Part shown: one piece after another, positions 7,377 through 25,266 of the stretch
Layout of the letters: each line of letters begins with the position of its first letter
How positions within the stretch are numbered: position 1 is the first letter of the stretch
DNA from: a virus
Direction: 5' to 3' (one strand)
IMG/VR virus record: IMGVR_UViG_3300034198_025175
Span: 1 to 31,210 of that record
DNA length: 31,210 nucleotides
Position numbers and translations under genes: made by a program
Notes under the pieces: model-generated
Told to the model about the DNA's origin: nothing
The model's database searches: none
Seen by the model: only the letters and a program-made list of their open reading frames with translations

Positions 7377-7679
7377 TTATATATTATTTTCTTTTCTGAA
7401 GTTTGAGACTATTGTATCAACGTTCGTTGGTATTCTCAATTGCTGTCCAGTAGGCGCCTTTAACGTTGCTTTTATTCCATTTGCTTGTGCGATAATCCAC
7501 CATAATGTACTGTCCTTATAAAATTTATATGCCAAACTGTCAAGATAATCCGTTTCACTTGCCACAATATATAAATCATTAATATTCTTTGGTATCTTTG
7601 GATATCTTGTTGTTTTGAATACTCGTTTTCCATCAAAACGAGTGAATGTTGTATTTGTATTTTCAATATATCTGTTCAT
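7377..7679 (-). CDS. gp53: LysM-domain baseplate wedge protein, gp53-like
   Basis: A 100-aa protein with one LysM-type fold at residues ~37-85: YIVASETDYLDSLAYKFY, then DSTLWWIIAQANGI and GQQLRIPTN. The 'D.L..iAykfY.d..lWWiIa.aN' pattern is typical of T4 gp53 and of tail protein X, which use a LysM-like domain as a structural adapter in the baseplate wedge and not for peptidoglycan binding in lysis. T4 gp53 is longer (about 196 aa), so this is a minimal version. It lies 5 bases after the 662-aa gene and 14 bases before the 811-aa gene, between baseplate genes, as expected. Confidence 0.75.
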   Translation of the reverse strand: MNRYIENTNTTFTRFDGKRVFKTTRYPKIPKNINDLYIVASETDYLDSLAYKFYKDSTLWWIIAQANGIKATLKAPTGQQLRIPTNVDTIVSNFRKENNI

Positions 7680-9678: not shown

Positions 9679-12600
9679 TTACGGAGAACTTTCGTCTGTT
9701 ATATCGGCCATAATCTTATGTACCTTCTTTCCATCCAAGTACACTGCTATACCTCCACTCTTAAACAGATCGATGAGGGTGTCTAGTTTTTGTTCCATTG
9801 AAGTTGTGTTTGTATTGGTAGTTACTTCGGTCTTTGTTTCTGCTGCACTCTTTCCTTGTCCACTTGTACCAACCAAGTTCTGAAGATTGGTCAAATTCAT
9901 CTTGTTCAATTCTACATTCAGTTTGCCAAGTGCGCCTGCCAACTTATCAACTGCCGTAGAAAATCCGTCTATGTTCTCTAAGTTAAATTTAATTCCGTTC
10001 AATGATTGCAACGCAGAAACACTTGTGGCCAATCCACTGCCGATATTTGCAAATCTTTCTAATTGAGATATCGCGCTTTTCCCAAACCAATCTGAGAAAA
10101 TAGATCCGCTGCTCATGCTTAATGCAGAACCAAGACTCTTGATGTTTTCTGTTATATTTTTTATTTCTATATTACCAAGTTTGTTTATGTTGGTTAAGAT
10201 GCCACGCAACTTCTTCCCAAAAGAATCTGATGAAGATGACAGAAATGACAGAGAGTTTGAGATTAGGATAATTCCTATCGCGGCGTCTTTTATATCATTT
10301 GCATTTTTTCCAAATGTTTCTAATGCGACAGCAATATCACGGATCTTACCCACAGATAATACTGAAAACCCTTCCAAAAGAAGACCTTTAGCACTAGCAA
10401 ATTCATCTACCGCAGATTTAATTCCAACAGTTCCATCAACAAATTTTTTAGCGCCTTCTCCCAATTGTTCAAGCGCTCCTCCCAATGATTTCATACTCAG
10501 TGTTATCAACACCATTGATGCTGCTCCAAGTACGAAAAATTCAAGACCAAGTCCAAATATAGCAATTGAAGAACCAAACAATACCAACGCACTGAATGCG
10601 TCTTCAATTTGTTTTGCATCAATATTTTTAAATTCTTGTAATGCTTTGGCAAAAAGATATAAAGCGCCGGCAATTAAGCCAACCGCAGCAGCCCCCGCCG
10701 CAGCGTTTTTTACAAGTTTGGACATTCCAGACGATACTGTTTCTGCAGTTCTTCCTACTGCACCACCCGCCCCTCCCGATATTGGTGTAGATGGTTTTCT
10801 AGAAAACCGTTCCATCAACTTGTTCAAACCAAAAATCTCTAACATTTTTGTTTTTGTAAAATTAAATACAGTTCCTAGCATTCTAATTATTCCTACTATA
10901 CCTTTAGATTTTCCAAATAAAAAATAAAGAAGTAAGCCTGACCCTAAGCTAAGAAATACCTTTCCAATTGCACTAACGCCATCTTTCGCCTCGTTCAACT
11001 TTGAAATAACATCATCAAGACTTTTTGCCCAGTTATTAATCGGCTCTATTACGTATGTTGATAATAAATCCGCCAGCATCTTGATTGGTTCCACCGTCAT
11101 CTTTAGCAATGGAATAATTGTCAGTTTTAGTATGGAACCTATCAACTTAAATATAGGAACTACAATTGAAACCAATGGGGTCAATATTGGCTCAAGTATA
11201 CTACCGACTGCCACAGCCAAATCTTCCATTGTATTTGTGAGATTGGTCATCAATCCTTGCATTTGTCTTTGACGAAGTATCTTTTCATTCTCAGCCAAGA
11301 CACCTTCTTTGCTCAAAGTTGTTGTTTCTTCCATTTGTTTCAATACTTCTTTCTGTGTCTTCAGTCTTTCCTTCGCCGCTTCGTCACTTCCCTCCATTAT
11401 TTCTTTTTCTAACTTTCTTTTTGCAAGTGCCTTGGTCAAATCTCCCAATTCAAGTCCAGTCATCTTGGCAATTGCATCTCTAGTGTATGGATCTCTAACC
11501 TCTCCTATTGACTCAACAACATCAAGGGTTTCTTCCAATGCGGCTGTGAATTTTCCTTGATATGCAAGTGAACGAGCTTGTTGCATTGATACACTTCTTC
11601 CAAGTAAATTGCTTACCAACAGTTCGTCATTTATACTGGTGTTATAATCAAGAAGTTTCTTTTGAGCAGATGCAGCCTTGTTTATATCCAAGCCATATGC
11701 TCTTGCTGCAATAGCTGCTTTTAGCAATACTTGAGGAGTAGCTCCCAACAATGATACGGTATCACTTGACATCTGCGCAATGTCTTTCATTGCCATTTGG
11801 AATGGGACATATGCCTTCTTTGCCAATTCAGACCCAACTGCGATCATGTTTATCGCAACTTTTTGAGAAGTGTTACCAAGTCCTTGAAACAGTGCCAATG
11901 CTGCTGCCGAGTCTTCTACAGCAACATTTAGATTTTCAGAAAGCAATGCAACAGATTTCATGGCGTCTTCTGTTACAACTGCAGCACTTCCAAATGTATT
12001 TACCAAAGCCTTTGCGGCATTATATGCCTTTTCAATGTTAATTCCCATGTCCGCAAACTGTGCGCTAATTTCTTCTGCGTATTTTCTTATTCCACCCATC
12101 TGAGCTATGGTTAGGCCAGTTTCTCTTCTGAATTTTTCTGCACCACTATCCAACTCTTTAAACCGTTTTAATGTTGATGTAATCACCGCATCCATTATCA
12201 AGAATTGAGGCGGTATTGTTTCCATGTCTTTTGCAAACTTTGCAATTCCACTTCCAACAGGTCCGAGTATATTCAAAAATCCTCCAGCCGTGTCTTTTAG
12301 ATGCGCCATATAACCAGACTGAAGTTTTACTTCTCTTGTTGCCGCTTTAATTTTTTCTAACTTTTTTTGTTCCTCTCCTATTAATTTTGCAATTGCATTG
12401 ATTTCTGTGTTTTCTAGTAATTTTCGGACTTCTTGTTCTCTCGAAATAGATTTATCGAGCTGTTCCTGTTTTTGTTTTTCAGCTGTTATACCAACTTCTA
12501 TGTTACTGGCCGCTTGTTTATTTACCAGCGCTTGTTCGGATAATCTGCCTGCATCGCGTTCTAAACGTTCTATACTGTGTACCAATTTAAGTCTTTGTGA

Positions 12601-13176
12601 AAGAGTAAGTTGACCCTGCTTTAGTTGAAGCCGATCTCTAAGACTTTGTGCCACATCCATTCTTAATTTTGCCTTTGCGACAGACTCATCGCTTTTTTTG
12701 GACCGTTCACTTGCATCTACTTGCAGTCTGTTCATTCTCTCCACACTTTCTAGTCTTAATTGATCAAACATCCAAGCTCGACTGCCACTTTGTTCTAATC
12801 TTTTTCTCCTCTCTTCATCAGAAAGTTTTATAACCATTGCATGTTTTTTCTCAAGTTCTATTCTTTTTGAAGTAAGTGAAATTATTTTTCTTTCTATATC
12901 TTCAGTTTGAGTTTCTAACTGGTTAAATATAATTTTTCTGGCTTTATCATTTTTCAATATTTCACTTGAAAAACTTGCCATCAACTTCATTCTGATTGAT
13001 TGGTCTTTTGTTTTTTCTGAAATATCTCTAAAGCTGGCGACAAGGCTTTTTGCCAAATCGGCACTCTCTTGCAGTCGTTCTTTGTATATAAGAGCACGTG
13101 CGGCTGTTTCGGCATCTAAACCGGGTACCCCACGCGGTGGGGTTGATGGACCAGTAGATGTAGGTTTATCTGCCAT
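9679..13176 (-). CDS. Tail tape measure protein
   Basis: 1165 aa, the longest gene in the block. Residues ~60-290 are a charged, heptad-rich coiled coil (many K/E/R/Q runs, for example SLTSKRIELEKKHAM). Residues ~300-640 are Ala/Lys-rich helices. Hydrophobic segments occur near 655-690 (ILTPLVSIVVPIFKLIGSIL), 748 (SLGSGLLLYFLFGK) and 833 (VGLIAGALYLFAKAL). This layout is typical of tape measure proteins, which set tail length inside the tube and enter the host membrane at infection. At the usual ~1.5 angstrom per residue the tail could be up to roughly 170 nm, well above T4; that is an estimate. The gene sits between the gp26-like pair and the tube-cap-like gene, matching the T4 26..29-48-54 order. 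Confidence 0.88.
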   Translation of the reverse strand: MADKPTSTGPSTPPRGVPGLDAETAARALIYKERLQESADLAKSLVASFRDISEKTKDQSIRMKLMASFSSEILKNDKARKIIFNQLETQTEDIERKIISLTSKRIELEKKHAMVIKLSDEERRKRLEQSGSRAWMFDQLRLESVERMNRLQVDASERSKKSDESVAKAKLRMDVAQSLRDRLQLKQGQLTLSQRLKLVHSIERLERDAGRLSEQALVNKQAASNIEVGITAEKQKQEQLDKSISREQEVRKLLENTEINAIAKLIGEEQKKLEKIKAATREVKLQSGYMAHLKDTAGGFLNILGPVGSGIAKFAKDMETIPPQFLIMDAVITSTLKRFKELDSGAEKFRRETGLTIAQMGGIRKYAEEISAQFADMGINIEKAYNAAKALVNTFGSAAVVTEDAMKSVALLSENLNVAVEDSAAALALFQGLGNTSQKVAINMIAVGSELAKKAYVPFQMAMKDIAQMSSDTVSLLGATPQVLLKAAIAARAYGLDINKAASAQKKLLDYNTSINDELLVSNLLGRSVSMQQARSLAYQGKFTAALEETLDVVESIGEVRDPYTRDAIAKMTGLELGDLTKALAKRKLEKEIMEGSDEAAKERLKTQKEVLKQMEETTTLSKEGVLAENEKILRQRQMQGLMTNLTNTMEDLAVAVGSILEPILTPLVSIVVPIFKLIGSILKLTIIPLLKMTVEPIKMLADLLSTYVIEPINNWAKSLDDVISKLNEAKDGVSAIGKVFLSLGSGLLLYFLFGKSKGIVGIIRMLGTVFNFTKTKMLEIFGLNKLMERFSRKPSTPISGGAGGAVGRTAETVSSGMSKLVKNAAAGAAAVGLIAGALYLFAKALQEFKNIDAKQIEDAFSALVLFGSSIAIFGLGLEFFVLGAASMVLITLSMKSLGGALEQLGEGAKKFVDGTVGIKSAVDEFASAKGLLLEGFSVLSVGKIRDIAVALETFGKNANDIKDAAIGIILISNSLSFLSSSSDSFGKKLRGILTNINKLGNIEIKNITENIKSLGSALSMSSGSIFSDWFGKSAISQLERFANIGSGLATSVSALQSLNGIKFNLENIDGFSTAVDKLAGALGKLNVELNKMNLTNLQNLVGTSGQGKSAAETKTEVTTNTNTTSMEQKLDTLIDLFKSGGIAVYLDGKKVHKIMADITDESSP

Positions 13177-13214: not shown

Positions 13215-14132
13215 CTACTTTTTGAATGATGGCGGTTTAGCTATTTTACCTCCCGTAGCTTTACCTTCACTTGCTGCTTTATTTGCTTCTGCCTCTTGTT
13301 TTTTGACATCTACCAGCTTTTTTATATAAAAAGACCTTAATAACGTTGGCATTTTGTATACATTCTCTTGTGTAAATGCTCCATTGCTATAATAACAAAG
13401 GTCAAAGATTTCAGAGTGAATGTTCATCTTCGACTCTGGTTGTATTCCAAATATGCTTGAGTCAACTTCGACTTTTGACTTTTTGACACTTTTGCATGTA
13501 GGGCATTCAACTGCTATTTCATTATGATAGCCCGGCGTATTGATCTCATAATACTTTCTGAACATCGCGCTATCTGTTGCGGATAGTTCATAATCATAAA
13601 AGTTGTTTATGTCATCCACACCATCAATGCTAATGGTTATCGCCTTGGCAAAAGTCAGCCAACCATGCTTTTCATATATATCATGTTCATCGCAAGTTGG
13701 CAGTTTGAAGTATACAGTCTTTTTGCACTTTGAAAAAGTGTATGAAAGCTTGTTTACGCCTTTCTCAATTGTAGAAAAATTAAATTTTTTGGACTTAAAT
13801 CCAAATGATATATTGCATTCAAAGTCCTTATCACACTCTTCACACCTTACTTTAGCGGTCGATGTTGATCCATAGTTTGCAATTTTAAGGTTCAACAAGA
13901 TTGATAACTTATCGCAATGCAACAGTTCATCTGTGTTCACACCGCCATCAACAACTGTGTTGAGAAATCTTTTCTCCAACAAACCTCGCTTGGCCAAATT
14001 TGCATTGGCCAATAACTCTTCAACTTCCGCCGTGATGGGCAGTATGCTTACCTTGCCAACTGATAATGATGAACTACTTGGATAAAAGTATCCCTCTGAA
14101 GCCAGATCTATGATTTCAGAATGTGAATTCAC
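13215..14132 (-). CDS. gp26: gp26-family baseplate protein with zinc-ribbon cysteines, copy 2
   Basis: 305 aa with a GTG start (14132), 8 bases after the stop of its paralogue. It has the T4 gp26-family opening (LASEGYFYPSSSSLSVGKVSI, with EELLANANL following). Cysteines C97/C100 (CEEC) and C210/C213 (CPTC) could form one zinc ribbon, with further Cys at 106, 136 and 147. It ends with a Lys/Ala-rich tail. T4 gp26 takes part in baseplate hub assembly. Compared with its neighbour, this copy is more diverged, has a longer C-terminus, and contains a duplicated-looking 'MNIHSEIFDL' echo of its own N-terminus near residue 235. Specialised subunit versus chaperone cannot be decided from sequence. 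Confidence 0.72.
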   Translation of the reverse strand: MNSHSEIIDLASEGYFYPSSSSLSVGKVSILPITAEVEELLANANLAKRGLLEKRFLNTVVDGGVNTDELLHCDKLSILLNLKIANYGSTSTAKVRCEECDKDFECNISFGFKSKKFNFSTIEKGVNKLSYTFSKCKKTVYFKLPTCDEHDIYEKHGWLTFAKAITISIDGVDDINNFYDYELSATDSAMFRKYYEINTPGYHNEIAVECPTCKSVKKSKVEVDSSIFGIQPESKMNIHSEIFDLCYYSNGAFTQENVYKMPTLLRSFYIKKLVDVKKQEAEANKAASEGKATGGKIAKPPSFKK

Positions 14133-14140
14133 ATCTCATG

Positions 14141-14974
14141 TTAATTGTCATTTATGTTTGGCCAAAAGAAGCTGGCTCCCAATGGTACTGTCATCATATC
14201 CGAGTGACCGCACGAAGGGCATGTGAAATAGAAATTCATGTCCATATCTGGGGTGATTTCTCTGATATATCTTCTTAGCGCCAAGCTATCCTTTGCGGTT
14301 AATTGATTATCCACAAAGTTCTTGATCTTGAGTCTATCAGTGTCGCCATCAACAGACTTTATGCTATACTTCAATCTTGTTGTTATTTCTGGCGATGTCG
14401 CTGCCATATTCAGTTTTGCCAATGCCTTCAACTCTTGTTCAATGTCGGTTTCATCCTTGTGAGTCAAAAATGCAATCGCGATCTTTCTATTTGAATTTGG
14501 CAAAACATAATCAAACTTGTTTTCTCCCTTGGTTAGGTTGGTCACATCAAGTTCTTTGTTTTTCAGCTTACTCAAGTCAATCGGAATATTGGACTCTACT
14601 CCACACTCTGGGCACTTGATCTTTGTGACATATTCATCGCCATATGCACTGCGGCGAGCAGCAATAAACAATGCATTCTTATCGCCAATCAATAGATCAT
14701 TGATGCTTACATTTGGCGTAGCGATAAGCGCCTTGAGGAATTCATCCAACACAGTTCCCTTCTTAAGCAAGTTGGTGTTGCTAAGAATATCTTCGTGGCG
14801 AGCAGTTACTTGATATATATCAATTGTACCAGAAGACAGAGGATGACTTGTGGGATAAAAATAGCCCTTCGATGGCAACGCAACCGTTTCAGTTGCAGCA
14901 TTTACTTTTGATGTCTCTGTTTGAGCAGGCTTCTGTGCAGCGGCTTTTGTTATGGGAATGATTGTATCTGACAT
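14141..14974 (-). CDS. gp26: gp26-family baseplate protein with zinc-ribbon cysteines, copy 1
   Basis: 277 aa, ATG at 14974. After a ~30-residue disordered start, the family block reads VALPSKGYFYPTSHPLSSGT, then VTARHEDILSNTNLLKKGT and LIGDKNALFIAARRSAYG. This is the pattern of the T4 base plate protein gp26 family as I know it from large phages. CPEC (121-124) and CPSC (252-255) are well placed for a zinc ribbon closing across the protein. It ends in an aromatic stretch (GASFFWPNINDN). It lies immediately upstream of its paralogue and the tape measure gene. The start is preceded by AACTGTTACAAA four bases before the ATG, the same element as at the 811-aa baseplate gene. Confidence 0.78.
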   Translation of the reverse strand: MSDTIIPITKAAAQKPAQTETSKVNAATETVALPSKGYFYPTSHPLSSGTIDIYQVTARHEDILSNTNLLKKGTVLDEFLKALIATPNVSINDLLIGDKNALFIAARRSAYGDEYVTKIKCPECGVESNIPIDLSKLKNKELDVTNLTKGENKFDYVLPNSNRKIAIAFLTHKDETDIEQELKALAKLNMAATSPEITTRLKYSIKSVDGDTDRLKIKNFVDNQLTAKDSLALRRYIREITPDMDMNFYFTCPSCGHSDMMTVPLGASFFWPNINDN

Positions 14975-15051: not shown

Positions 15052-16032
15052 TTATTCAGACTTATTTTCTTTATCTTCTTTGGCTTTCTTGTTCTTTTTA
15101 ACAAAGAATTGTATCACACCCATCAATAATATAGAACCGCCTGCTATTGCACCTATAATCCACATAGGAATGCTTGTGGCCATATATGCAAGACCAAGGA
15201 AGGTAATGCCAGAGAATATCATGTTGAAGCTCTTGAAGAGTACTCCAAGTATTATAAATATTATACCGATACCACCGAGTAGTCTAACGAGCCAAACCAT
15301 AAGTTCTTGTTGTTGTGCTTCCTTGAGCAAGCGAACTTGATCTGCTGCTTCTGCACGCACGCGCTCAACTTCTGCCTTCTTTTCAGCTTCTAGCTTTTCA
15401 ATGGCCAAACGATTGGCTTCCTTGAGTTGAGCCTTTTCCTTTTCCTTCTGAACAATCAATGCTTCGGCATCATCTAATTGAGCCTTTTGATTTACAGCAA
15501 GATCAATGGTTTGCTTGTATTTGATATACAGTTGATCAACTGTCTTTTGACGTTCATCTTCAACTTCCTTCTGAAGCTCTGCTTTTTCTGCATCAGTCAA
15601 TTTGTCTGTGCGCATCATGATTTCCTTGGAACGTAGATGTGCTATGGTTGTATTGATGTCTGTCTTTTTGTTCTTTTGAGTAACAAAGTATACACCATAA
15701 TTCAACTCCGCGATCTTGTCGAAGTTATCTTGGTCTTTCTTCTTGAGATCTTCATATGCCTTTCTTGCTTCTTCTTTCAGTTTGGCATATTCTTCTTCCA
15801 TTTTCTTTTTGTCTTCCGCAGCCTTTTGTTCGGCTGCAGCCGCTTTTTCCATTGCTTCCTTAGCGGCTTGAGCGGCAACCACTGCTGCCACATTTACTTC
15901 CGGTTCTTTAGGCTGTTCTTGCTTAGTTGGTTCCGCTTTCTTTGAACCAAAGCTTGGTAGCTTTGGCATACTTGGAACCATACTGCATCCGGCCATAAGT
16001 GTAACCATTAGTAGTGTGGCGAGTTTTTTCAT
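15052..16032 (-). CDS. Lipoprotein with long coiled coil and C-terminal membrane segments (unimolecular-spanin-like layout)
   Basis: 326 aa. The N-terminus MKKLATLLMVTLMAGCSMVP is a lipoprotein signal with lipobox LMAGC (Cys16) and Ser at +2, which in enterobacteria favours the outer membrane. Pro/Lys-rich residues 20-45 follow, then charged Ala/Glu/Lys helix with strong coiled-coil character (~50-105 and ~140-243). Three hydrophobic segments come next (~245-266, 269-288, 289-311) and a Lys/Glu tail. A lipobox at one end and membrane segments at the other is the layout of unimolecular spanins, which bridge outer and inner membranes in lysis. Those usually have one C-terminal segment and less coiled coil, so a superinfection-exclusion or envelope protein is possible. 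The gene starts 3 bases after the tag-operon gene before it. Confidence 0.7.
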   Translation of the reverse strand: MKKLATLLMVTLMAGCSMVPSMPKLPSFGSKKAEPTKQEQPKEPEVNVAAVVAAQAAKEAMEKAAAAEQKAAEDKKKMEEEYAKLKEEARKAYEDLKKKDQDNFDKIAELNYGVYFVTQKNKKTDINTTIAHLRSKEIMMRTDKLTDAEKAELQKEVEDERQKTVDQLYIKYKQTIDLAVNQKAQLDDAEALIVQKEKEKAQLKEANRLAIEKLEAEKKAEVERVRAEAADQVRLLKEAQQQELMVWLVRLLGGIGIIFIILGVLFKSFNMIFSGITFLGLAYMATSIPMWIIGAIAGGSILLMGVIQFFVKKNKKAKEDKENKSE

Positions 16033-16035
16033 ATG

Positions 16036-16830
16036 TTATAGTTTTGGTTGTTGTTTCTTTGCCTGCAGCTTCTTGATCCAAAGTGCTCTTTGCGATGCTT
16101 TTTTACGTTCTTCTGCTGACGCCATTGCTGCTAGATCGCTTTCTGGCGCATCTTCTGCGCCAGATGACTTGTCTGCGCCAAGTTCTGTTCTCAATTCGTC
16201 GGCTGTCTTCTTGATGAAAGTTGGGTCTGTATTAAATCCAGCTTCTTCGTTTGATGACAATTGGTTGATGATTTCTTCGTCAGATGTCTCTGGTGCGGCT
16301 GTTAGAATGTTTTCAATTTCTTCTTTTGTAGCTGCGTCGGAAGTCTTGCCACCGACAGGTGCGGCGTCAACTTTCTTTGGACGACCCATGTTTGGGTTTG
16401 TTCCTTTTGGAACATATGGACCCTTTGGTGCTTCTGTTGGTGTGCCGTCTGGAATGGTCTTATGTCCTTTGACAACCCAACCAGTTGGTGAAGATGGATC
16501 TTGGACCTTGAACTTGCTGCCAACTGCACCCGCTGTGCGTGCCATTTCTTCGATAGACTCACGGATCATGTCCATGATTTCTTCCTTAAGATCTCCAACC
16601 TTTTGTGGATTGGCTGGTTTCTTCACGACAGGAAGCTTCTTAGCTTCTTCCTTTTCCTTTGGTCCTGCACCAGTTAGATCCTTTGACCCAGCAATCTTTT
16701 CAGTATGCTCAGTCGAGTCCTTGGTCTGTTTGAAACCAGACAGTCCTTTAGACTCTGATAGCTTTTGTTTTGCTGCCATCACTTCTTCTGTGATGACTTT
16801 GAGCAGTGCTTTTAGTTCTGTTTTTTTCAT
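16036..16830 (-). CDS. Tagged charged phage protein (264 aa), unknown function
   Basis: The start MKKTELKALLKVITEEV is the shared N-terminal amphipathic helix of this operon, and KLSE|S (residues ~24-28) fits a T4-type prohead protease site. A second similar helix, LKEEIMDMIRESIEEM, lies near residues 81-96. Between ~100 and 150 is a small SKFKVQDPSSPTGWVVKG / PNMGRPKK segment. The rest is Glu/Asp/Ala-rich and probably disordered, ending in a Lys/Gln-rich tail. It has no membrane or catalytic motifs. It lies between the 98-aa tagged protein and the lipoprotein, with short spacers on both sides. A role as a capsid-internal or scaffold-core type protein is inference from composition and tag. 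Confidence 0.65.
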   Translation of the reverse strand: MKKTELKALLKVITEEVMAAKQKLSESKGLSGFKQTKDSTEHTEKIAGSKDLTGAGPKEKEEAKKLPVVKKPANPQKVGDLKEEIMDMIRESIEEMARTAGAVGSKFKVQDPSSPTGWVVKGHKTIPDGTPTEAPKGPYVPKGTNPNMGRPKKVDAAPVGGKTSDAATKEEIENILTAAPETSDEEIINQLSSNEEAGFNTDPTFIKKTADELRTELGADKSSGAEDAPESDLAAMASAEERKKASQRALWIKKLQAKKQQPKL

Positions 16831-16849
16831 AATGATATATTGTTAAAGT

Positions 16850-17146
16850 TTATTTTTTCTTTGGCATCCCACTTTCGATCCAGTTCTTGATATCTTCTAT
16901 ATTCTGCTTTGTTAGATCTTTGTATGGACTTAGTTCCAATCCAACATTTATCCAATGAGATTTGCCGTCTGGTCCTTTGGCGAAGTAATTTGTTTTTATG
17001 TTATCTTGCTCACGATCTTCTTCAGAATATATTTCATATGGACCGTTGGAAGTTTGGATGGTGGCAATAACATTATCGGCTTCGTGTAGACCATACACTT
17101 CCTCAATAACTTCCTTGATTAATGCTTTTAGTTCTGATTTTTTCAT
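16850..17146 (-). CDS. Small tagged phage protein (98 aa), internal start inside the GIY-YIG reading frame
   Basis: A complete small gene can start at ATG 17146 (MKKSELKALIKEVIEEVYG) and ends at TAA 16850. GGGAA (17159-17155) lies 8 bases before the ATG. The tag is followed by GLHE|A, a fit to (I/L)xE|(A/G/S). The body has a small alpha/beta pattern (VIATIQTSNGPYEIYSEEDR, GKSHWINVGLEL) and ends in a Lys-rich tail; I do not recognise the family. No stop codon separates it from the upstream endonuclease frame, but its start, ribosome site and tag match neighbouring independent genes. I therefore regard it as its own gene, with the fused product as an alternative. Confidence 0.6.
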   Translation of the reverse strand: MKKSELKALIKEVIEEVYGLHEADNVIATIQTSNGPYEIYSEEDREQDNIKTNYFAKGPDGKSHWINVGLELSPYKDLTKQNIEDIKNWIESGMPKKK

Positions 17147-17776
17147 GATAATAATTCCCATTCTCTTTTTTGCCCATTTTTTTACTATATCTAAAGTTTC
17201 TCCAATTTCGGATGCTATATCTTTATACTTTACACCTTCACTTTTACGCAAGTGAATCAAATCATATTTTTCTTTGGTGAGAGACCTGCGGGTCATTGCA
17301 CGTTTTTCAATCTGCTGCTTGTTCCATTTTACCCACGGCTTTTTCATACCAAGATGCGCTTCTGATATTTTTGACTTTGTTTCGTCGGAATGGTTTTTAC
17401 CATGCATTCTATCATAATTTTTTGGAATACCCTTCAAAGCTATACTTCGTTTCAGATTTGATTCTTCGCTCATTACTAATCCGTTGTTGCCGTCTCCACC
17501 GAGAGTAGAATTATATCCATTCATATATGAATTATACTTTTGAATATATTCTATTTCTTTTTGCTTTGCTTCGTCGTTAGAGACATTTTCAATAAGAATT
17601 TCTGCTCTCCAAACACCGTCGCCGTGTTTTTTTATGGCATTGTAGAACTTCCTGTTTCCAACGTGCTTCTTTGCGTCTTTGATGTGCTGCTCAAATCTTT
17701 CAGACAATGTTTTACTGGTCCATCCTATGTATGGTTTGTTGTTTACAGTGTTTGTAATTTTATATACTATTGCCAT
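16850..17776 (-). CDS. GIY-YIG homing endonuclease, open in frame into the downstream tagged gene
   Basis: The start is ATG 17776, two bases after the TAA of the upstream gene (TAATATG); the frame is open back to 17905, but that part overlaps the conserved end of the upstream gene. Residues 1-90 are a GIY-YIG nuclease: VYKITN (4-9), YIG (16-18), R27, and a Glu in KQKEIEYIQKYN (~74). Next come NUMOD3-like DNA-binding segments (HSDETKSKISEAHLGMKKPW) and a helix-turn-helix (YKDIASEIGETLDIVKKWAK). At residue 211 the frame continues straight into MKKSELKALIK of the 98-aa gene. The endonuclease proper is therefore ~210 aa (17776-17147). Such enzymes are mobile and usually insert between genes. Loss of its own stop codon, or a real fusion, are both possible. 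Confidence 0.82.
   Translation of the reverse strand: MAIVYKITNTVNNKPYIGWTSKTLSERFEQHIKDAKKHVGNRKFYNAIKKHGDGVWRAEILIENVSNDEAKQKEIEYIQKYNSYMNGYNSTLGGDGNNGLVMSEESNLKRSIALKGIPKNYDRMHGKNHSDETKSKISEAHLGMKKPWVKWNKQQIEKRAMTRRSLTKEKYDLIHLRKSEGVKYKDIASEIGETLDIVKKWAKKRMGIIIMKKSELKALIKEVIEEVYGLHEADNVIATIQTSNGPYEIYSEEDREQDNIKTNYFAKGPDGKSHWINVGLELSPYKDLTKQNIEDIKNWIESGMPKKK
17155..17159 (-). promoter_or_regulatory. Ribosome binding site for the internal start at 17146
   Basis: GGGAA on the minus strand, 8 bases before ATG 17146, inside the GIY-YIG reading frame. It supports independent translation of the 98-aa protein. Confidence 0.45.
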
Positions 17777-17777
17777 A

Positions 17778-18338
17778 TTACCAAGCTCTGCACGACCAAT
17801 AACGGGCTTTCCACCGGGGCCCAGGATTTGCACAATTGTGTCTTGCTCTAAAACTCTTTCTGCGTTTTGGATTGCTCTTTTTGATACGCATTTTCTTGTC
17901 GCCATAATTTACTTTTACAATTTTACCATTGGGTTTACGGACATAAGTTTTAAATTTTTTTACATCGCCCCTCATTTTTTTACCCAACGGAACATTTTTT
18001 CCATGATACTTTGCTTCGTCCAAATACGATTCGTTGTTGTAAGGTACATTCAATTTTACTTTTTTACCTTGATACTCGGCCTCTTCTAGATTTTCCTTAG
18101 CGTCTGCGTTGATGTCTCCATAGATTTCATAGAATTCATCACCTTCGCATGTGTGTTCTTCGCCTTCTGGTACCATATCCCAATTGGTCTTGCGATAGCA
18201 CTCTTCCCAAGCTTCATTGGTGCCCTCTTCCATTGCCATTTGATAACATTCCCAACATTCATCCTGCATTTGGGATTGTTCGTTCCACATTTCTTCCACC
18301 ATTTCTCTTATTATGTTTTTCAGTTGATCTTCTTTCAT
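17778..18338 (-). CDS. Tagged protein with Arg-rich/Cys C-terminal phage domain (186 aa), internal start
   Basis: ATG 18338 begins MKEDQLKNIIREMVEEMW, the shared tag, and is preceded by GAGGA at 7 bases, the best ribosome site of the operon. The product has an acidic Cys/Trp-rich part (DECWECYQ, EAWEECYRKTNWD), then two related segments EEAEYQGKKVKLN and DEAKYHGKNVPLG (tandem degenerate copies). It ends with the basic block KTYVRKPNGKIVKVNYGDKK, MRIKKSNPKRRKSFRARHNC and RWKARYWSCRAW. I recall this RRKSFRARHNC..YWSCR.W ending in many phage proteins that look structural; its function is unknown. The same frame is open upstream to 18932, so it could also be the C-terminal third of a longer protein. 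Confidence 0.65.
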   Translation of the reverse strand: MKEDQLKNIIREMVEEMWNEQSQMQDECWECYQMAMEEGTNEAWEECYRKTNWDMVPEGEEHTCEGDEFYEIYGDINADAKENLEEAEYQGKKVKLNVPYNNESYLDEAKYHGKNVPLGKKMRGDVKKFKTYVRKPNGKIVKVNYGDKKMRIKKSNPKRRKSFRARHNCANPGPRWKARYWSCRAW

Positions 18339-18932
18339 AATTGTTTCCTCGTGTTTTTTGCGACCTTGGCAATGTGCTTTTTGACTAAATCCTTTTGGAT
18401 GGCTGCAATCTATGCTACGTTTGTATTTTTCACTCCACTTTTCATCCAGTTCTTCAACGCCTTCTGATTTTGTTCCCCAGTTCTTTGCGCCCTTCTTACG
18501 ACATTTCACAAGTGCACCAGAAGCATATGCGCTTGGCCATACCTTATAACGGGACTTGACCTTGTAGTAACAAGCATCCTTCTTCTCATTCATAAGTGCT
18601 TCGGATACAAGTTCGCCTCCACAGATTGGACATTTGTGATTTTCTGTGACGTTGTGCATAGTGGTTTCTTCCGTTTTCACATTCTTTGATTTTCCGCTTC
18701 GATCTGGATTTGGATCTTCACGGCGCTTTCTGCGTGCGGCAGTTGCTCTTGCCTTCTTTCCCATAGCTTGGGCAGACTTTAATGGGCGACACTTTGGCTT
18801 TCCTTCACTTTCTTTTTCTCTAGCACACTTACCACGAATTTTGCCATCTGGACCAAATCTTACCCATTTCTCCTTGAACCATTTATGGAGATTTTCTTCC
18901 AATTCATTGATCTGTTTTTCAACTTCGTCCAT
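17778..18932 (-). CDS. Long open frame joining three phage domains (384 aa)
   Basis: From ATG 18932 (MDEVEKQINELEENLHKW), 4 bases after the upstream stop, the frame is uninterrupted to 17778. Unit 1 (to 18660): WVRFGPDGKIRGKCARE, a basic KKARATAARRKRREDPNPDR segment. Unit 2 (18659-18339): CPICGG zinc-type pair, ACYYKVKSRYKVWPSAYASG, then CSHPKGFSQKAHCQGRKK. Unit 3 is the tagged 186-aa protein. I recall each unit as a separate small domain widespread in phages, sometimes strung together. ATG 18659 has GGAAG at 8 bases and ATG 18338 has GAGGA at 7. The frame is open farther back to 19016, but that part overlaps the upstream gene and is rejected. Whether one polyprotein, three proteins or both are made is unknown. 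Confidence 0.6.
   Translation of the reverse strand: MDEVEKQINELEENLHKWFKEKWVRFGPDGKIRGKCAREKESEGKPKCRPLKSAQAMGKKARATAARRKRREDPNPDRSGKSKNVKTEETTMHNVTENHKCPICGGELVSEALMNEKKDACYYKVKSRYKVWPSAYASGALVKCRKKGAKNWGTKSEGVEELDEKWSEKYKRSIDCSHPKGFSQKAHCQGRKKHEETIMKEDQLKNIIREMVEEMWNEQSQMQDECWECYQMAMEEGTNEAWEECYRKTNWDMVPEGEEHTCEGDEFYEIYGDINADAKENLEEAEYQGKKVKLNVPYNNESYLDEAKYHGKNVPLGKKMRGDVKKFKTYVRKPNGKIVKVNYGDKKMRIKKSNPKRRKSFRARHNCANPGPRWKARYWSCRAW
18346..18350 (-). promoter_or_regulatory. Strong ribosome binding site for the internal start at 18338
   Basis: GAGGA on the minus strand, 7 bases before ATG 18338, inside the open frame of the 384-aa protein. It is a textbook site in a region where many starts have none. 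Confidence 0.6.
18668..18672 (-). promoter_or_regulatory. Ribosome binding site for the internal start at 18659
   Basis: GGAAG on the minus strand, 8 bases before ATG 18659 (MHNVTENHKCPICGG), at the boundary between the first and second domain. Confidence 0.45.
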
Positions 18933-18936
18933 TTGA

Positions 18937-19530
18937 TTATTTACCAATCTTCTTGGCAATATCTGCCACGTTTTCTTCTTCCTCTGCTGCAGCCGTGCTT
19001 GCTTTGCCAACCGCAATATTTGCTTTTGTGATTGCTCTCTCTGTTCTATTGACTACTGGGTAATTTCTACGATCAAAATCCGCTTTTGATTTGTCTATTT
19101 TTCTTTTATCTTCCAATGCTTTTCTTTCCTTTTCTTGAGCGGCTGCGAGTTTCTTCTGAGCATCTTCCAACTTCTTTGCAGCTGCTGTATCGGCTGCTGT
19201 TTGTGTCTGATCAATCTCATTGAGATCTTCGGCAAATATTTCAGCCATCATGTTGATTGAACTGTGCAATACACCGTTTGGTTCCAAAGCATGTTTGGCA
19301 TTTCTCCAATCGTCTGCTTCTACCTTAGAAAGAAGATCTTTCAATTCATTGATAATTTTATTTTTCCAAGCACTTGCAGGCATATTACCATAACCAACCA
19401 TTTGCAATGTTGGATTATCGGTGTCTTTGTTTGCGATGACATAACCATACTTGCCACCTTTGGCATTTATCTCGCTCAACTTGTGAGCTACGATATTTTT
19501 AATTACTTCTTGGAGAAACTCGCGTTTCAT
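18937..19530 (-). CDS. Helical charged phage protein with tag-like N-terminus (197 aa)
   Basis: The start is ATG 19530, directly after the upstream TAA (TAATATG); a longer frame to 19575 exists but overlaps the conserved C-terminus of the previous gene. The start MKREFLQEVIKNIVAHKLSE is a looser version of the operon's N-terminal helix. Residues ~25-105 look globular (GGKYGYVIANKDTDNPTLQM, WKNKIINELKDLL, WRNAKHALEPNGVLHSSINM). Residues ~105-165 are an Ala/Lys/Glu coiled coil and the end is Ala/Glu-rich. I do not recognise the family. It has no membrane segments or catalytic motifs. Tight packing with the genes on both sides implies one transcript. Confidence 0.65.
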   Translation of the reverse strand: MKREFLQEVIKNIVAHKLSEINAKGGKYGYVIANKDTDNPTLQMVGYGNMPASAWKNKIINELKDLLSKVEADDWRNAKHALEPNGVLHSSINMMAEIFAEDLNEIDQTQTAADTAAAKKLEDAQKKLAAAQEKERKALEDKRKIDKSKADFDRRNYPVVNRTERAITKANIAVGKASTAAAEEEENVADIAKKIGK

Positions 19531-19531
19531 A

Positions 19532-20230
19532 TTATTTCTTGCCTTTTGGCCAACCGCTCTTGGCACGAATGGCAAAGTTTAGTTCCTTCATCTTGATATC
19601 TTCTTTGCTTCCGCGCTTATGTGGACCCTTCTTCTTAAGATTGCTCAATTGTGTTTCCAATTCAGCTTTGGTCTTTCCTTTGAACATCCCTTTCTTCTTT
19701 GGATTAACAACACCCTTCTTGTTCCATTTTTCATCAAGCTGTTCGGCTTCTTCAGAACCTTCTTCACCTTTCTCTTCGGCTTCTTCCCCACCTTCTTCTT
19801 TTTCACCTTCTTCACCTTCTGCGCCATGCATGTTCAACAATTCATCCGCAAGAGCTTTGATCTTATTGGCTAATTCAACTTCTTTGGCTTCTTCTGGATT
19901 ACTCAGATCAGTTTCATCATGTTCTTCGTTCTGATCAACTTCACCGCCTTCTTCAGCTTCGTTCAATGACTTATTTTCCCAAGCTGTCCACATTTCGTTT
20001 TTTGACTCACTCCATGCCTCGCAAACATTAAGAACTCTTTTATCACCTTCTGCCAATTTTCGTTCCATTTCATGTACTGCTTTTTCTCCATGTTTCTTGA
20101 ACATGTGTGCTCTTAGAGCAGGAGGCAGCGTTTTTCTTTGTTCATTAGCAACACCCATTGGAGCAAATTGATCATTCATTACTTCTTCAACTGCTTCGCG
20201 GATAATCCGTTTTAGTTCTGTGCGTTTCAT
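19532..20230 (-). CDS. First gene of the tagged-protein operon (232 aa)
   Basis: ATG 20230 has AAGGA at 6 bases. The protein opens with the clearest tag, MKRTELKRIIREAVEEVMND, containing IRE|A, a fit to a T4-type prohead protease site. Residues ~30-90 are a helical domain (PPALRAHMFKKHGEKAVHEM, EAWSESKNEMWTAWENK). Residues ~92-165 are very acidic Glu/Gly repeats, encoded as GAA-rich DNA. LDEKW is followed by the C-terminal domain KKGMFKGKTKAELETQLSNL, KKGPHKRGSKEDIKMKELNF and AIRAK, a short basic domain that I recall from many phage proteins. It follows a terminator and a candidate promoter and so probably leads the operon 20230-15052. Confidence 0.7.
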   Translation of the reverse strand: MKRTELKRIIREAVEEVMNDQFAPMGVANEQRKTLPPALRAHMFKKHGEKAVHEMERKLAEGDKRVLNVCEAWSESKNEMWTAWENKSLNEAEEGGEVDQNEEHDETDLSNPEEAKEVELANKIKALADELLNMHGAEGEEGEKEEGGEEAEEKGEEGSEEAEQLDEKWNKKGVVNPKKKGMFKGKTKAELETQLSNLKKKGPHKRGSKEDIKMKELNFAIRAKSGWPKGKK

Positions 20231-20452: not shown

Positions 20453-20947
20453 TCAAAATTGTAAAATTGCGTAGTCGTATGACAGCGTGACGTTGATGAG
20501 CAACGCTTCTTGGGATCCCCAATCCAATCCAGAGCCGTTAAAGTCAACGCTGCTTGGAAACGCACCCTTCAACTGCCATTCTTCGACCTTATCACCAACA
20601 GGTCCAAGAACATTGATGGTAACGTCCTTCTTGTAGAAGTCAGCATATCCGTTACGACCAGTGACAGACTCGTGAGCAAGACGAACCCATTCCATGCATG
20701 CTTGTGCAGCAGATGGCACTACTGGATCATACAATGTGATTTGTACATCTTGCCACTCGCTCTTACCCTTTAGCTTGCGCTTTAGGTTGATATGATCGAG
20801 TGTGATTGTTCCATTGTTAATGGTTGGGCGTGCGGCTGCTTTGATAAGATAGGCAGGAATGCCGTCTATGCTAATGATGAAACGGTTTTGAACTTTTGGT
20901 TCATATGCCGTGAAGAATATTTGATCTGCTTCTAGTAGGTCTGCCAT
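20453..20947 (-). CDS. gp19: Major tail tube protein, gp19-like
   Basis: 164 aa, essentially the length of T4 gp19 (163 aa). Family blocks: FFTAYEPKVQNRFIISIDGI, PAYLIKAAARPTIN, KGKSEWQDVQITLYDPVVPS, VLGPVGDKVEEWQLKGAF, then a C-terminal LDWGSQEALLINVTLSYDYA. Hexamers of this protein stack to form the inner tube of the contractile tail, around which the sheath polymerises. It is separated from the sheath gene by about 4.4 kb of accessory genes; in T4 genes 18 and 19 are adjacent. It has no Shine-Dalgarno; the ATG follows CACTTAATATT. It is transcribed alone, with a terminator directly after it and a plus-strand endonuclease before it. Confidence 0.93.
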   Translation of the reverse strand: MADLLEADQIFFTAYEPKVQNRFIISIDGIPAYLIKAAARPTINNGTITLDHINLKRKLKGKSEWQDVQITLYDPVVPSAAQACMEWVRLAHESVTGRNGYADFYKKDVTINVLGPVGDKVEEWQLKGAFPSSVDFNGSGLDWGSQEALLINVTLSYDYAILQF

Positions 20948-21073: not shown

Positions 21074-22579
21074 ATGGCTAGACCAAAAAGCTCAAACTCA
21101 TATATAACATCCACATGCCCAACATGTAAAAACGAGTTTACTTTTAAAAAGTATAAGCCGAAGACATATTGCAGTAAAACTTGCGCAGCCAATTCACCAG
21201 AAGTAAAAGAAAAGAATAGGGTTGGTGTATCCAACACTTTCAATATCAAATATGGCGGTCATGCCATGAAGACAGATGAAACCAAGGAAAAGTTCAAAAG
21301 TTCTATGGTTTCAAAGTATGGCAAAGAGTATGCCATGCAAGTCAAATCCATTCAAGACAAAGCAAAGAGAACAGCGGTTGGAAACTATGGTGTTGAAAAT
21401 GTACTGTCATCAAACAGTCCAATAAGAGAACAGATAATACAAACTTGGACAGACAAGTATGGAGTAGATAATCCTGGGAAATCGGCTGAAGTCATCAATC
21501 GTCGCAGCAAAAGAAAGCAGGAAAATCATTATGCCGATTTGAGTAAGCTGTTTGCAGCGAACAATCTTACATGGCTTATAAAGCCAGAAGAGTACGAGGG
21601 ATATCATTTTTCCAAGTCATATAACTTTAGATGCAACAAATGCAGCAATACATTCGACTCTACTGTATATGTTCCCAATAATGTATTTTGCGAAATATGC
21701 TATCCTGACAAGAAGAACAGCGGAGAGAAATCATTGCTTGATTTTCTAAACAGCGAGCTTAATGGAAAAGTCATATCAAGACACAACCGAACAATACTTG
21801 GTGGTAAAGAATTGGATTTTTATATACCAGATCTGAACATCGCTGTTGAATATAATGGTTTATATTGGCACAAGGAGAGTGTAAGAGTGTCAAAGAATTA
21901 TCATTTGGACAAAACAAAGAGTTGCGAGGAAAAAGGTATAAAGCTCATTCACATCTTTGAAAACGAATGGCTGCAAAAACAGAATATTGTCAAATCCATA
22001 GTAAGACAGATGATTGGAGGACAAGTGACAAAAATTCATGGTAGAGAATGTGATATCAAGAAAGTAGACACAAATACAAAGAGAGATTTTCTTAATAACT
22101 GTCATATTCAAGGAGATGACAAGTGCACAGTTGCATATGGATTGTTTTATAAAGATCATTTGGTCAGTCTCATGACATTCTGCAAAAGCAGATTTGACAA
22201 AAAGCATGAATGGGAAATATCAAGATTTTGCAATGCCCTTAACACAAAGATACATGGTGGTGCGAGCAAACTGTTCAATATATTCCTACAGGATTATACA
22301 CCAAAAAGCATAGTGAGCTATTCTGACCGCCGTTACTTTTCTGGAGAAGTATACAAAAAACTTGGTATGACATTTGAAGGATATACGGCGCAAGGATATC
22401 ACTATATCTCTCCAGACTGCAGAGCGCTGTTCAATCGCCAAATGTTTCAAAAGAAAAAATTGGCTGAAAAATTACAAATATTTGATCCCAATATATCAGA
22501 ATGGGAAAATATGAAAAATAATGGGTATGATAGAATATGGGACTGTGGACATTCCAAATGGGTTTGGAAATCCAAATAG
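21074..22579 (+). CDS. Vsr-like (EDxHD-type) homing endonuclease with zinc fingers
   Basis: 501 aa, coded against nearly all neighbours. An N-terminal zinc finger (C15, C18, C33, C37) is followed by repeats of the 'KYG...' type (residues ~55-140: IKYGGHAMKTDETKEKF, NYGVENVLSS, KYGVDNPGKSAEV), probably DNA-binding. A second zinc ribbon (C187, C190, C206, C209) precedes the nuclease: E218, GGKELDFYIP (D248), IAVEYNGLYWHKES, YHLDK and GIKLIHIFENEW. This is the Vsr-fold family that includes phage homing endonucleases such as I-Bth0305I. The C-terminal ~180 residues (YGLFYKDHLVSLMTF, EISRFCN, GGASKLFNIFLQ, IVSYSDRRYF) resemble the acetyltransferase-like domain often fused to these enzymes. It is probably mobile and non-essential. 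Confidence 0.85.
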   Translation: MARPKSSNSYITSTCPTCKNEFTFKKYKPKTYCSKTCAANSPEVKEKNRVGVSNTFNIKYGGHAMKTDETKEKFKSSMVSKYGKEYAMQVKSIQDKAKRTAVGNYGVENVLSSNSPIREQIIQTWTDKYGVDNPGKSAEVINRRSKRKQENHYADLSKLFAANNLTWLIKPEEYEGYHFSKSYNFRCNKCSNTFDSTVYVPNNVFCEICYPDKKNSGEKSLLDFLNSELNGKVISRHNRTILGGKELDFYIPDLNIAVEYNGLYWHKESVRVSKNYHLDKTKSCEEKGIKLIHIFENEWLQKQNIVKSIVRQMIGGQVTKIHGRECDIKKVDTNTKRDFLNNCHIQGDDKCTVAYGLFYKDHLVSLMTFCKSRFDKKHEWEISRFCNALNTKIHGGASKLFNIFLQDYTPKSIVSYSDRRYFSGEVYKKLGMTFEGYTAQGYHYISPDCRALFNRQMFQKKKLAEKLQIFDPNISEWENMKNNGYDRIWDCGHSKWVWKSK

Positions 22580-22580
22580 C

Positions 22581-23345
22581 CTACAACTTTACATCAAAAT
22601 CTTTTTCAAACTCTTTTGGTGCTGCCTTGTAACTTGCTTGAGTTTCATCCTTTGGATCACTCAAGTATTGCCAATTGAAACTCAGTGCATCTGGAACTTT
22701 GAAGCCAAAGAATTTAAATACCTGCTTCTGAACATCAATCACATTTTCTCCGTTCCAATTTTGTCCGATGAACACCACACCAGCCTCTTTGTCTTTGATG
22801 ACGTTTTCTTCATTCAATGTGGTGTGTCTATTTTCCAACCAAGTCAAACGTTCGATCAATCTTTGATATACTCCATTTGTTTGGCCCCATCTTACACTGC
22901 CAAAGAATACAATGGCATCGGACTCGAATAATACTTTGCTGATCTTCCAAAGCTCATCGTCCTTGTTGTTGTAGCTGCACCAACAACGATGATCGCCTGT
23001 TGGGTTCTTCTCCTTATCTTTCAACGCCGCTTCTTTCACTCCACAATTGTTTTTCTCGTGCTTGCTTACATTACCTTCGCAGTCATATATCTTCAATTTT
23101 GTAACACCAATGATTTCAGCATTTCCAATTTCATTTGCAACATATTCAGCGAGCACGGTACTCTTTGGCTTTTGCTTGTCGCCAATCCAACGATTGCTTG
23201 TGGTAAGAATGAGTACCTTCTTCTTTTCCTTTAAATGATTGATAAGTTTGTCCAACTTTGGAACCATATCAACAGCCTCATTTAGCATCAGATGTTCTGA
23301 CAGCAATTTTCGATGTTTCAAGAAGGTGTTTTCAAACGTGCTCAT
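22581..23345 (-). CDS. Flavodoxin-fold NAD(P)H-dependent FMN reductase-like protein
   Basis: 254 aa from ATG 23345 (MSTFENTFLKHRKLLSEH); an upstream ATG at 23387 would add a hydrophobic stretch coded in the spacer and is less likely. KKVLILTTSNRWIGDK begins the Rossmann-like sheet with the phosphate-binding loop, and KVLFESDAIVFFGSVRWGQTNGVYQRLIERLTW is the 'ADaivf.sPvywg' segment of FMN reductases (written here in two parts: KVLFESDAIVFFGSVRWG and QTNGVYQRLIERLTW). An insertion holds four cysteines (DCEG, NNCG, HRCWCSY), which could bind a metal or Fe-S cluster. The first ~25 residues precede the fold and include MLNE|A, resembling the operon tags. It could supply reduced flavin or detoxify; the substrate is unknown. 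It converges on the endonuclease gene with a 1-base gap. Confidence 0.7.
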   Translation of the reverse strand: MSTFENTFLKHRKLLSEHLMLNEAVDMVPKLDKLINHLKEKKKVLILTTSNRWIGDKQKPKSTVLAEYVANEIGNAEIIGVTKLKIYDCEGNVSKHEKNNCGVKEAALKDKEKNPTGDHRCWCSYNNKDDELWKISKVLFESDAIVFFGSVRWGQTNGVYQRLIERLTWLENRHTTLNEENVIKDKEAGVVFIGQNWNGENVIDVQKQVFKFFGFKVPDALSFNWQYLSDPKDETQASYKAAPKEFEKDFDVKL

Positions 23346-23809: not shown

Positions 23810-24703
23810 TCACTTCTTTGTTTGTGAAACTATTCGTGCTATATCCGTATACACATCATTGTCATTTTTCTTATACTTCTTGGATATATCTTCAATATAT
23901 GGATTGATGTCTGGATACTCACCAAACTCGATTGCATACGATACTATTTGTTTCGCTACATTTTCAATCTCATTTTCGTAATCGCTTGTTACTCTTGCGA
24001 TTTCTTTCACACTCATTTTCTTGTCGTATATCTTTGATATGCTGTTTTTCAATTTGTCCAAATGACCGTGTGCACGAAGTATCTTGAACACAATATTTTC
24101 TTCACTGAGTTCGCCGCCCCTGTCCAAACCAGCTTGACGATAATTGTATAACTTTTCTAATAACTTCTTCAAGCCGTTCTCGTCATGATCTTTGATTAGC
24201 GAGTTTATCTTTTTCTTATACTCTTTATATTTCTTCTTGATAAGCTCTTTGTTAAACTTTGGATCTTCCTTCGTTGGTTCTTTGATCCACTTGTTATTTA
24301 ATACGCTGTATTCTGCTGTGGATACTGGCTTGTGAGTTTTGTCTTGAATATATATCTCAACATCATGACCTTTAATCTTGATGTCATGCTTGTTGTTCCA
24401 ATTCACCTTGATAGCATCAAACAGTGTTTGAGCATCGTCTGGAGTCATATCGAGATCGCTGTAGTCAGTAATGATATGTAGATCCACATCCGAATAATCA
24501 GTCCAATTGTAGTTGGCGATGCTGCCAATAATAACCACGTCATGAATTTTGATATCAAGTTCATAATCTTTCTTTAAGTTTGTAACAAAGTCTGTTGCTA
24601 TCTTTAATAGCATGCCGCGTGCCTCATTGTCAAGACGATGTCCGTCCTCATCCATATGCCATAGCTTTGGGCAAAGATTATCTCTATATAACGGGTACTT
24701 CAT
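23810..24703 (-). CDS. Pol-beta-type nucleotidyltransferase
   Basis: 297 aa. VVIIGSIANYNWTDYSDVDL holds the signature of the nucleotidyltransferase fold: G60-S61 on the first strand and the metal-binding D72-x-D74. A third acidic residue is in GHDVEIYIQD (D114 or E116). The C-terminal ~160 residues are Lys/Glu-rich helices. I recall similar proteins in large T4-like phages called only 'nucleotidyltransferase'. The ATG overlaps the stop of the HAD phosphatase gene (ATGA, 24700-24703), so the two are co-translated and may act together, for example in nucleotide salvage or RNA end repair, or by modifying a host target. No HEPN partner typical of MntA antitoxins is adjacent. Confidence 0.75.
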   Translation of the reverse strand: MKYPLYRDNLCPKLWHMDEDGHRLDNEARGMLLKIATDFVTNLKKDYELDIKIHDVVIIGSIANYNWTDYSDVDLHIITDYSDLDMTPDDAQTLFDAIKVNWNNKHDIKIKGHDVEIYIQDKTHKPVSTAEYSVLNNKWIKEPTKEDPKFNKELIKKKYKEYKKKINSLIKDHDENGLKKLLEKLYNYRQAGLDRGGELSEENIVFKILRAHGHLDKLKNSISKIYDKKMSVKEIARVTSDYENEIENVAKQIVSYAIEFGEYPDINPYIEDISKKYKKNDNDVYTDIARIVSQTKK

Positions 24704-25266
24704 TTATTTATAAAAGGCTTTAGCTTATTGATACTACTCGCCGCGTCTGTGTGATGTATTGCGATACGATGTAATGCGACATTATCCCACACATCAATAT
24801 TTTTCTGGGTATCGTCTAGCAATAAATTCGACACTGTACCAGTTGAAGGTAGAATATAATTCGGTTTGTCCGTTCCTTTTGATGCTATGATGACTTTGAC
24901 ACTTGGATCAATATGTGTATGAGCCCATTGAGTCTTTTGCTCTTTCAATCCCGTACCTTGACCTGCAGTCAATATAACAGGGACTGGATCTGTGAAGTTT
25001 TCCTTGATGAAATTCCACAGTATCTTGGCGTCTGGCATAGGCTCTAACTCTAGCCAAAAATTTGGTTTCTTTGCAATGAGTTTCCAAAATGAGTTCTTTC
25101 CATTCTTTGCTTCATATTCACTTGGACTCAATCCATTCGAAAGTTCCTTAAATCCCTTGTCCATGTCAGCCAAGACTCCGTCCATATCCACGTAGCACTG
25201 TATTTTCAATACAGATTCGGCTTCTTCGTCAATTTCTTTCAATAAGTCTTTTAGTAATATATGCAT
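24700..25266 (-). CDS. HAD-family phosphatase, 5'(3')-deoxyribonucleotidase-like
   Basis: 188 aa. All four HAD motifs are present: VDMDGVLADMD (D27 nucleophile, D29), VILTAG (Thr), the Lys in ASKGTDKPNY, and LLLDDTQKN (Asp pair). The small cap between motifs I and II and the overall length match the 5'-nucleotidase C type, which removes phosphate from (deoxy)nucleotides. Before the fold stands MHILLKDLLKEIDEEAESVL, an N-terminal amphipathic helix like those of the tagged proteins at 16036-20230, which the enzyme fold does not need. It leads a two-gene unit with the nucleotidyltransferase, after the sheath terminator. It has no Shine-Dalgarno; TATAAATAT lies 4 bases before the ATG. Confidence 0.78.
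   Translation of the reverse strand: MHILLKDLLKEIDEEAESVLKIQCYVDMDGVLADMDKGFKELSNGLSPSEYEAKNGKNSFWKLIAKKPNFWLELEPMPDAKILWNFIKENFTDPVPVILTAGQGTGLKEQKTQWAHTHIDPSVKVIIASKGTDKPNYILPSTGTVSNLLLDDTQKNIDVWDNVALHRIAIHHTDAASSINKLKPFINK

Follow-up and report, generated by a model that had tools for sequence, protein, structure and literature searches.

Capsid-targeting sequences (CTSs) have been proposed as a means by which T4-like phages package various proteins (PMC9026906, PMC3012670), and the published motif of the T4 prohead protease gp21 is L/I-x-E, for which a review gives no requirement after the Glu (PMC9026906). The motif of phiKZ is S/A-x-E (PMC9026906). According to a report on SPN3US (PMC10052503), gp45 and gp225, which belong to the head and ejection proteins of phiKZ-like phages, have propeptides that a distant gp21-type protease removes by cutting after Glu; two such propeptides are 20 and 24 residues long. 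The Far-T4 paper (Roux et al. 2015, PMC4360716) makes no mention of prohead, scaffold, or protease and describes no leaders. Here, we analyzed an AT-rich virus record of 31,210 bases (IMG/VR IMGVR_UViG_3300034198_025175; this whole stretch is called the window below), in which several otherwise unrelated proteins begin with one shared N-terminal helix, termed the leader or tag. We consider it quite likely that this helix serves a Far-T4 phage as a capsid-targeting propeptide, which would be cleaved by the S77 prohead protease and would bring its cargo into the prohead.

Four open reading frames (ORFs) of the window, encoding 232, 186, 98, and 264 amino acids (aa) on the minus strand, all have the described N-termini, and looser versions begin two further proteins. 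These genes and two untagged neighbors are as follows (a slash marks a candidate cut):

19532-20230, minus strand, 232-aa tagged protein; leader MKRTELKRIIREAVEEV, nt 20180-20230
18937-19530, minus strand, 197-aa protein; divergent leader MKREFLQEVIKNIVAHKLSE/I
18330-18929, minus strand, untagged 200-aa DUF5872/phrog_727-like protein in the tagged-gene operon
17778-18338, minus strand, 186-aa tagged protein; leader MKEDQLKNIIREMVEEM, nt 18288-18338
17147-17779, minus strand, GIY-YIG + NUMOD3 homing endonuclease between the 186- and 98-aa tagged genes
16850-17146, minus strand, 98-aa tagged protein; leader MKKSELKALIKEVIEEV, nt 17096-17146
16036-16830, minus strand, 264-aa tagged protein; leader MKKTELKALLKVITEEV, nt 16780-16830
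24700-25266, minus strand, HAD / 5'-deoxynucleotidase-like enzyme; leader MHILLKDLLKE ahead of the catalytic domain

As claimed in the preliminary description, the 232-, 186-, 98-, and 264-aa proteins share one N-terminal pattern on unrelated bodies; in the present analysis, it reads MKxxxLKxx[IL]xxxxEE. When residues 2-21 of 32 window N-termini were shuffled, 0.00028 matches to MK...LK..[IL]....EE were expected, compared with four observed, and none of 200,000 shuffles gave more than one match. The tags of the window genes are codon-related, with 30-39 of 51 nucleotides identical; the DNA upstream and downstream is unrelated, indicating that the sharing is confined to the leader. Looser tags had also been assigned to the 197-aa protein and the HAD phosphatase. 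The former is a genuine member, its homologues starting with MKKSQLK, MKKSELK, or MKKAELK; the leader of the latter is related but looser (ILLKxLLKE) and kept in most orthologues. The earlier account of the operon was right about the four tagged ORFs and overlooked the DUF5872-like gene and the GIY-YIG endonuclease; this endonuclease is an insertion and not cargo.

The canonical L/I-x-E is present at the leader end of the 98-, 197-, and 264-aa window proteins. The site predicted for the 264-aa protein, LSE/S, has counterparts in its family: it stands immediately ahead of KGLSG, and [LI]xE (IDE, LSE, LDE, LEE) directly precedes KGLSG in 7/7 homologues examined. Similarly, all five members of the 197-aa family have [LM]xE at the leader end (LSE, LAE, MGE, LNE). 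In the 98-aa protein, LHE/A lies ahead of the folded body; its structure model shows the leader as a helix, parted from the body by a low-confidence linker containing LHE/A. A PDB fold search with this model gave no significant match, and the model of the 186-aa protein, whose basic C-terminus is conserved (phrog_7595), was too poor for use (predicted local distance difference test, pLDDT, of 47). The site IRE/A, proposed within the helix of the 232-aa protein, was not sustained: orthologues have IRE/V, IRE/T, or VRQ, and the conserved motif lies further on. In 13 of 14 family members, the leader is combined with [LM]xE ahead of a PP motif; this [LM]xE was lost in the window copy. P2 varies in the orthologues of window genes while the cleavage motif is kept. 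In the window alone, [IL]xE is not enriched among N-termini (7/27, against 5.2 expected). Two more N-termini are candidate leaders:

22581-23345, minus strand, FMN-reductase-like protein; N-terminal extension MSTFENTFLKHRKLLSEHLMLNE/A
703-1572, minus strand, 289-aa protein; N-terminus MKTINEFISTVITE/A

Homologues of the FMN-reductase-like protein read FEHFNLNE/S at this point, and the N-terminus at 703-1572 is a candidate that we take to be similar to T4 internal-protein leaders.

The leader of the tagged window genes, designated class A, was then aligned across 126 examples, representing about 126 body clusters among the matches listed. As observed, the consensus is MKKSELKQIIKEEIxKVLxE, and positional conservation ends at Glu20. 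An [ILVM]xE motif at aa 17-22 was found in 79/126 leaders; decoy residues in place of the Glu gave lower counts (K 21, N 16, S 13, Q 10, D 4, and R 2). Likewise, [ILV]xE with the E at positions 16-24 occurred in 102/126, compared with 48.9 +/- 5.1 in shuffles. Two cultured phages related to these, Microcystis phage Mel-JY01 and Flavobacterium phage immuto, showed further leader classes. Class B reads M..EEFKRMQKLAG[IL]xE (the FKRMQKLAG- set), class C reads MENFDLKKFLVENKLTxNSKLLxE (the NFDLKKFLVENKLT- set), and class D, sought by analogy with class A, reads MKITKxQLKQIIKEELxxVLxE. Pattern scans and clustering placed each of B, C, and D on dozens of unrelated bodies. The motif ends 45/59 class B clusters, the remainder being mostly scaffold C-termini, and 48/48 class C clusters; class D has this ending as well. 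Thus, leaders B and C, wholly unlike A in sequence, share the same [ILVM]xE ending, and no other single argument speaks as strongly for a putative processing site as this convergence.

Next, we analyzed the association of the leaders with the S77 prohead protease, detected as PF03420 in the records carrying them. As proposed in the preliminary description, leader-bearing contigs were searched for a gp21-like protease; of those with a length of 100 kb or more, 36/37 had S77 (A 11/12, B 7/7, C 6/6, D 12/12), some contigs of the sample being related to one another. For class A contigs of at least 40 kb, the count was 19/30. Random contigs, picked with an unrelated 15-mer, contained S77 in 1/24 at a length of at least 40 kb and in 0/4 of those reaching 100 kb. 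Among class A contigs, a full gp23 is accompanied by S77 without exception, and those lacking the protease mostly lack gp23 as well, as expected for fragments. Furthermore, the tags cluster around the S77 gene: 22/64 are no more than 3 kb away from it, against an expected 3.7 (P < 0.0002 by circular shift), and all of these are on its strand. Orthologues of the window cargo occur together with S77 in the relatives G036 (L088/L505) and G023 (L089/L504). The cultured Flavobacterium phage vB_FspM_immuto likewise encodes an S77 protease along with a number of leader-bearing genes, such as immuto26A_176, _177, _188, _191, _194, _195, and _199.

The leaders also resemble proteins of the head core. 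In the Far-T4 loci examined, the scaffold gene lies upstream of the capsid gene, and the C-terminus of its product is in most cases KLAG[IL] or a sequence close to it; class B leaders open with this KLAG motif. A core protein encoded between portal and protease (the gp67/68 position; STTGxVxGYxTPxAF) starts with a class A-like helix. In the same genomes, capsid and protease N-termini carry [ILV]xE, mostly ahead of S or A. T4 gp23 is cut at FLTE/A, and the capsid [ILV]xE matches the position of this site. These likenesses suggest that the leaders may dock cargo through copied segments of core proteins. As for the scaffold tail itself, [MF]x[KR]LAG[IL] or a close variant was observed in L282, L283, L487-L504, and others, including phages of 330-350 kb (L501, L502).

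Several Far-T4 phages also have, within their head cluster, a gene for a bS21-like ribosomal protein near that of the prohead protease:

L282, 22183-22410, bS21-like gene, annotated as such
L487, 8911-9150, bS21-like gene, labeled by eye
L490, 12115-12396, bS21-like gene, labeled by eye
L493, 7507-7722, bS21-like gene, labeled by eye
L494, 9005-9244, bS21-like gene, labeled by eye

The spread of the leader over unrelated bodies was examined in IMG/VR using a degenerate DNA pattern encoding MKK[ST]ELKx[IL][IV]KE. At least 120 stretches in viral contigs matched, and a control pattern with the same codons scrambled gave no matches there. In 257 Gb of cellular genome contigs, eight tag stretches were found, all from metagenome-assembled genomes or uncultured-bin records; the leader is nearly restricted to phages. 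BLAST clustering of tagged class A bodies gave 135 clusters among the matches listed, and the near-identical class D gave 145. Relatives identified through the tail tube and DUF5872 have the same leaders on orthologous as well as unrelated bodies, and tags form tandem arrays in L193, L178, L491, and L493. Tagged bodies mostly lack a Pfam match; those matched include a serine hydrolase, GP88, DUF5661, DUF5452, and an ADP-ribosyltransferase-like domain. A tblastn search of cultured phages with the 21-residue consensus leader found nothing, probably owing to the short, repetitive query, and no cultured relatives were found for two large tagged families. ADP-ribosyltransferase-like proteins bearing leaders were observed at L194:12872-13501, L224:8171-8842, and L329:2361-3248; one tagged body matches Tox-ART-HYD1, and the others were labeled by eye. 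In T4, the ADP-ribosyltransferase Alt is packaged.

Tagged units are also joined to one another. The 98- and 264-aa proteins are fused in the relatives L014, L010, and L008. In L095, L016, L019, L096, L089, and L082, an in-frame fusion links the DUF5872 protein with the tagged 186-aa unit; in most of these fusions, each unit retains its own tag. Within the 264-aa window protein, the tag occurs a second time (LKEEIMDMIRESIEEM, about aa 81-96), a copy that the preliminary description had overlooked. At a score of 14, 126 internal copies were counted against two in reversed proteins, and hence these copies are real.

The tagged genes of the window are part of a minus-strand cluster of T4-like tail genes:

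25343-28333, minus strand, sheath
20453-20947, minus strand, tail tube
13215-14974, minus strand, gp26/51-like hub genes
9679-13176, minus strand, tape-measure-like gene
7377-7679, minus strand, gp53-like gene

Their place between the tail tube and the hub and tape-measure genes could mean that the helix docks proteins to the tail (tube lumen, tape measure, or baseplate), making them tail-associated rather than head cargo. We regard this as unlikely, because in protease-bearing relatives, the tags stand beside the prohead protease and not beside tail genes, a class A-like helix opens the conserved protein in the prohead-core gene slot, and the [LI]xE ending suits a head protease. Another explanation is an uncleaved element for assembly or localization (coiled-coil docking, membrane association, or regulation), with [LI]xE reflecting mere helix chemistry. 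In alignment and structure models, the segment is indeed an amphipathic, K/E-rich helix, and the internal copies stand at domain starts. However, Glu20 is conserved where the amphipathic pattern does not require Glu, decoy residues are not conserved, and the very different class B and C leaders have the same end motif; we therefore give this explanation a low probability. Finally, descent of an ordinary, diverged paralogue family with a shared N-terminus of no function of its own would explain the partly conserved tag DNA of the window genes (up to 39 of 51 nt) but is highly improbable given the unrelated upstream and body DNA, the more than 100 separate BLAST body clusters, and the distinct folds of the tagged bodies (serine hydrolase, GP88, DUF5661, and ADP-ribosyltransferase-like).

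Several observations weigh against a cleaved capsid-targeting propeptide. The 31-kb window record gave no match to the S77 protease or gp23, its closest relatives are fragments without S77 and without gp23, and its tagged genes sit in the tail cluster and not next to head genes, none of which is on this fragment. Two of the five class A window proteins (186 and 232 aa) lack a canonical L/I-x-E at the leader end, and [ILVM]xE is not enriched just upstream of internal tags (17/70, against 12.8 expected). Tags and S77 may go together partly because each is a mark of T4-like phages. In the literature, no virion proteomics was found for tagged proteins or isolates. The idea that class A copies the N-terminus of the scaffold was rejected, as scaffold N-termini score low on the class A profile. 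The residue after the Glu (P1') is weakly biased, with N, G, A, and E enriched and K depleted; a strict rule of A, G, or S at P1' was not supported for class A leaders. The preliminary description, which had required these residues, was thus too strict on the details of the site, whereas its core idea of a capsid-targeting leader cut by a gp21-like protease finds good support in the S77 co-occurrence, the clustering, the [LI]xE boundary, the common ending of leader sets with distinct sequences, and the copies of core proteins.

From these sequences, we infer the following course, including for the window phage itself. Late in infection, the leader, as a copy of part of a core protein, would dock the tagged protein on the prohead core or inner shell. 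A cut by the S77 (gp21-type) protease after the Glu of [LI]-x-E at the leader end would then free the body inside the head, and the body would later be ejected with the DNA. The window phage probably belongs to the Far-T4 group, judging from its tail tube, which is related to those of Rhodothermus RM378, Flavobacterium immuto, and Microcystis Mel-JY01. For a still wider proposal, we see about an even chance: that Far-T4 phages have a general, exchangeable head-loading leader code, with classes borrowed from prohead-core segments and ending at the protease motif, placed repeatedly on hundreds of unrelated proteins, and that a large set of uncharacterized, injected phage effectors can be recognized in this way from sequence alone. 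A main way for phages to get past host defenses is to inject proteins along with their DNA; these proteins are usually unrecognizable, as their bodies lack known relatives. Should the leaders indeed label head cargo, the first 20 residues would identify hundreds of protein families of environmental phages as candidate injected effectors, and the segments borrowed from core proteins would point to the assembly partner. The leaders would also offer new encapsidation tags for phage engineering.

Other features were observed around these genes. A 501-aa homing endonuclease (phrog_3339, DUF7487; 21074-22579, plus strand) lies on the opposite strand within the tail cluster, so that two mobile endonucleases, this one and the GIY-YIG gene, are near the cargo genes. 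Between cargo and hub genes, an ORF at 15052-16032 (minus strand) has a lipoprotein-like signal (MAGCS) and C-terminal hydrophobic segments. A DNA polymerase-like ORF (phrog_17; 3144-4538, minus strand, 464 aa, TTG start) adjoins the tail genes and is possibly a split or partial polymerase. A tail-fiber-like ORF with GTNGSSGTSG repeats (29716-31209, minus strand) continues past the record end.

Compared with known systems, the leaders are closest in design to the CTS of T4 IPI, IPII, IPIII, and Alt, where a short N-terminal leader on diverse proteins likewise ends at the L/I-x-E motif of an S77 protease. The propeptides of phiKZ-like phages are also N-terminal and cut after Glu by a gp21-type protease, but their motif differs, and the available part of the source describes no leader common to unrelated proteins (PMC10052503). 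The differences from the T4 CTS are that the leader here is about 20 aa, instead of 10, with a different sequence; that there are several leader classes on hundreds of bodies, often in tandem arrays; that the class B leader is a copy of the scaffold C-terminus, and that of class A is similar to a core protein; and that leaders also occur internally, in fused proteins. Class A showed no resemblance to the T4 internal-protein leader, as compared by eye, and only the N-terminus at 703-1572 resembles it; the tagged proteins were thus set apart from the T4 internal-protein family and not filed as its members. Nevertheless, by their sequence features, they most likely work like the T4 internal proteins.

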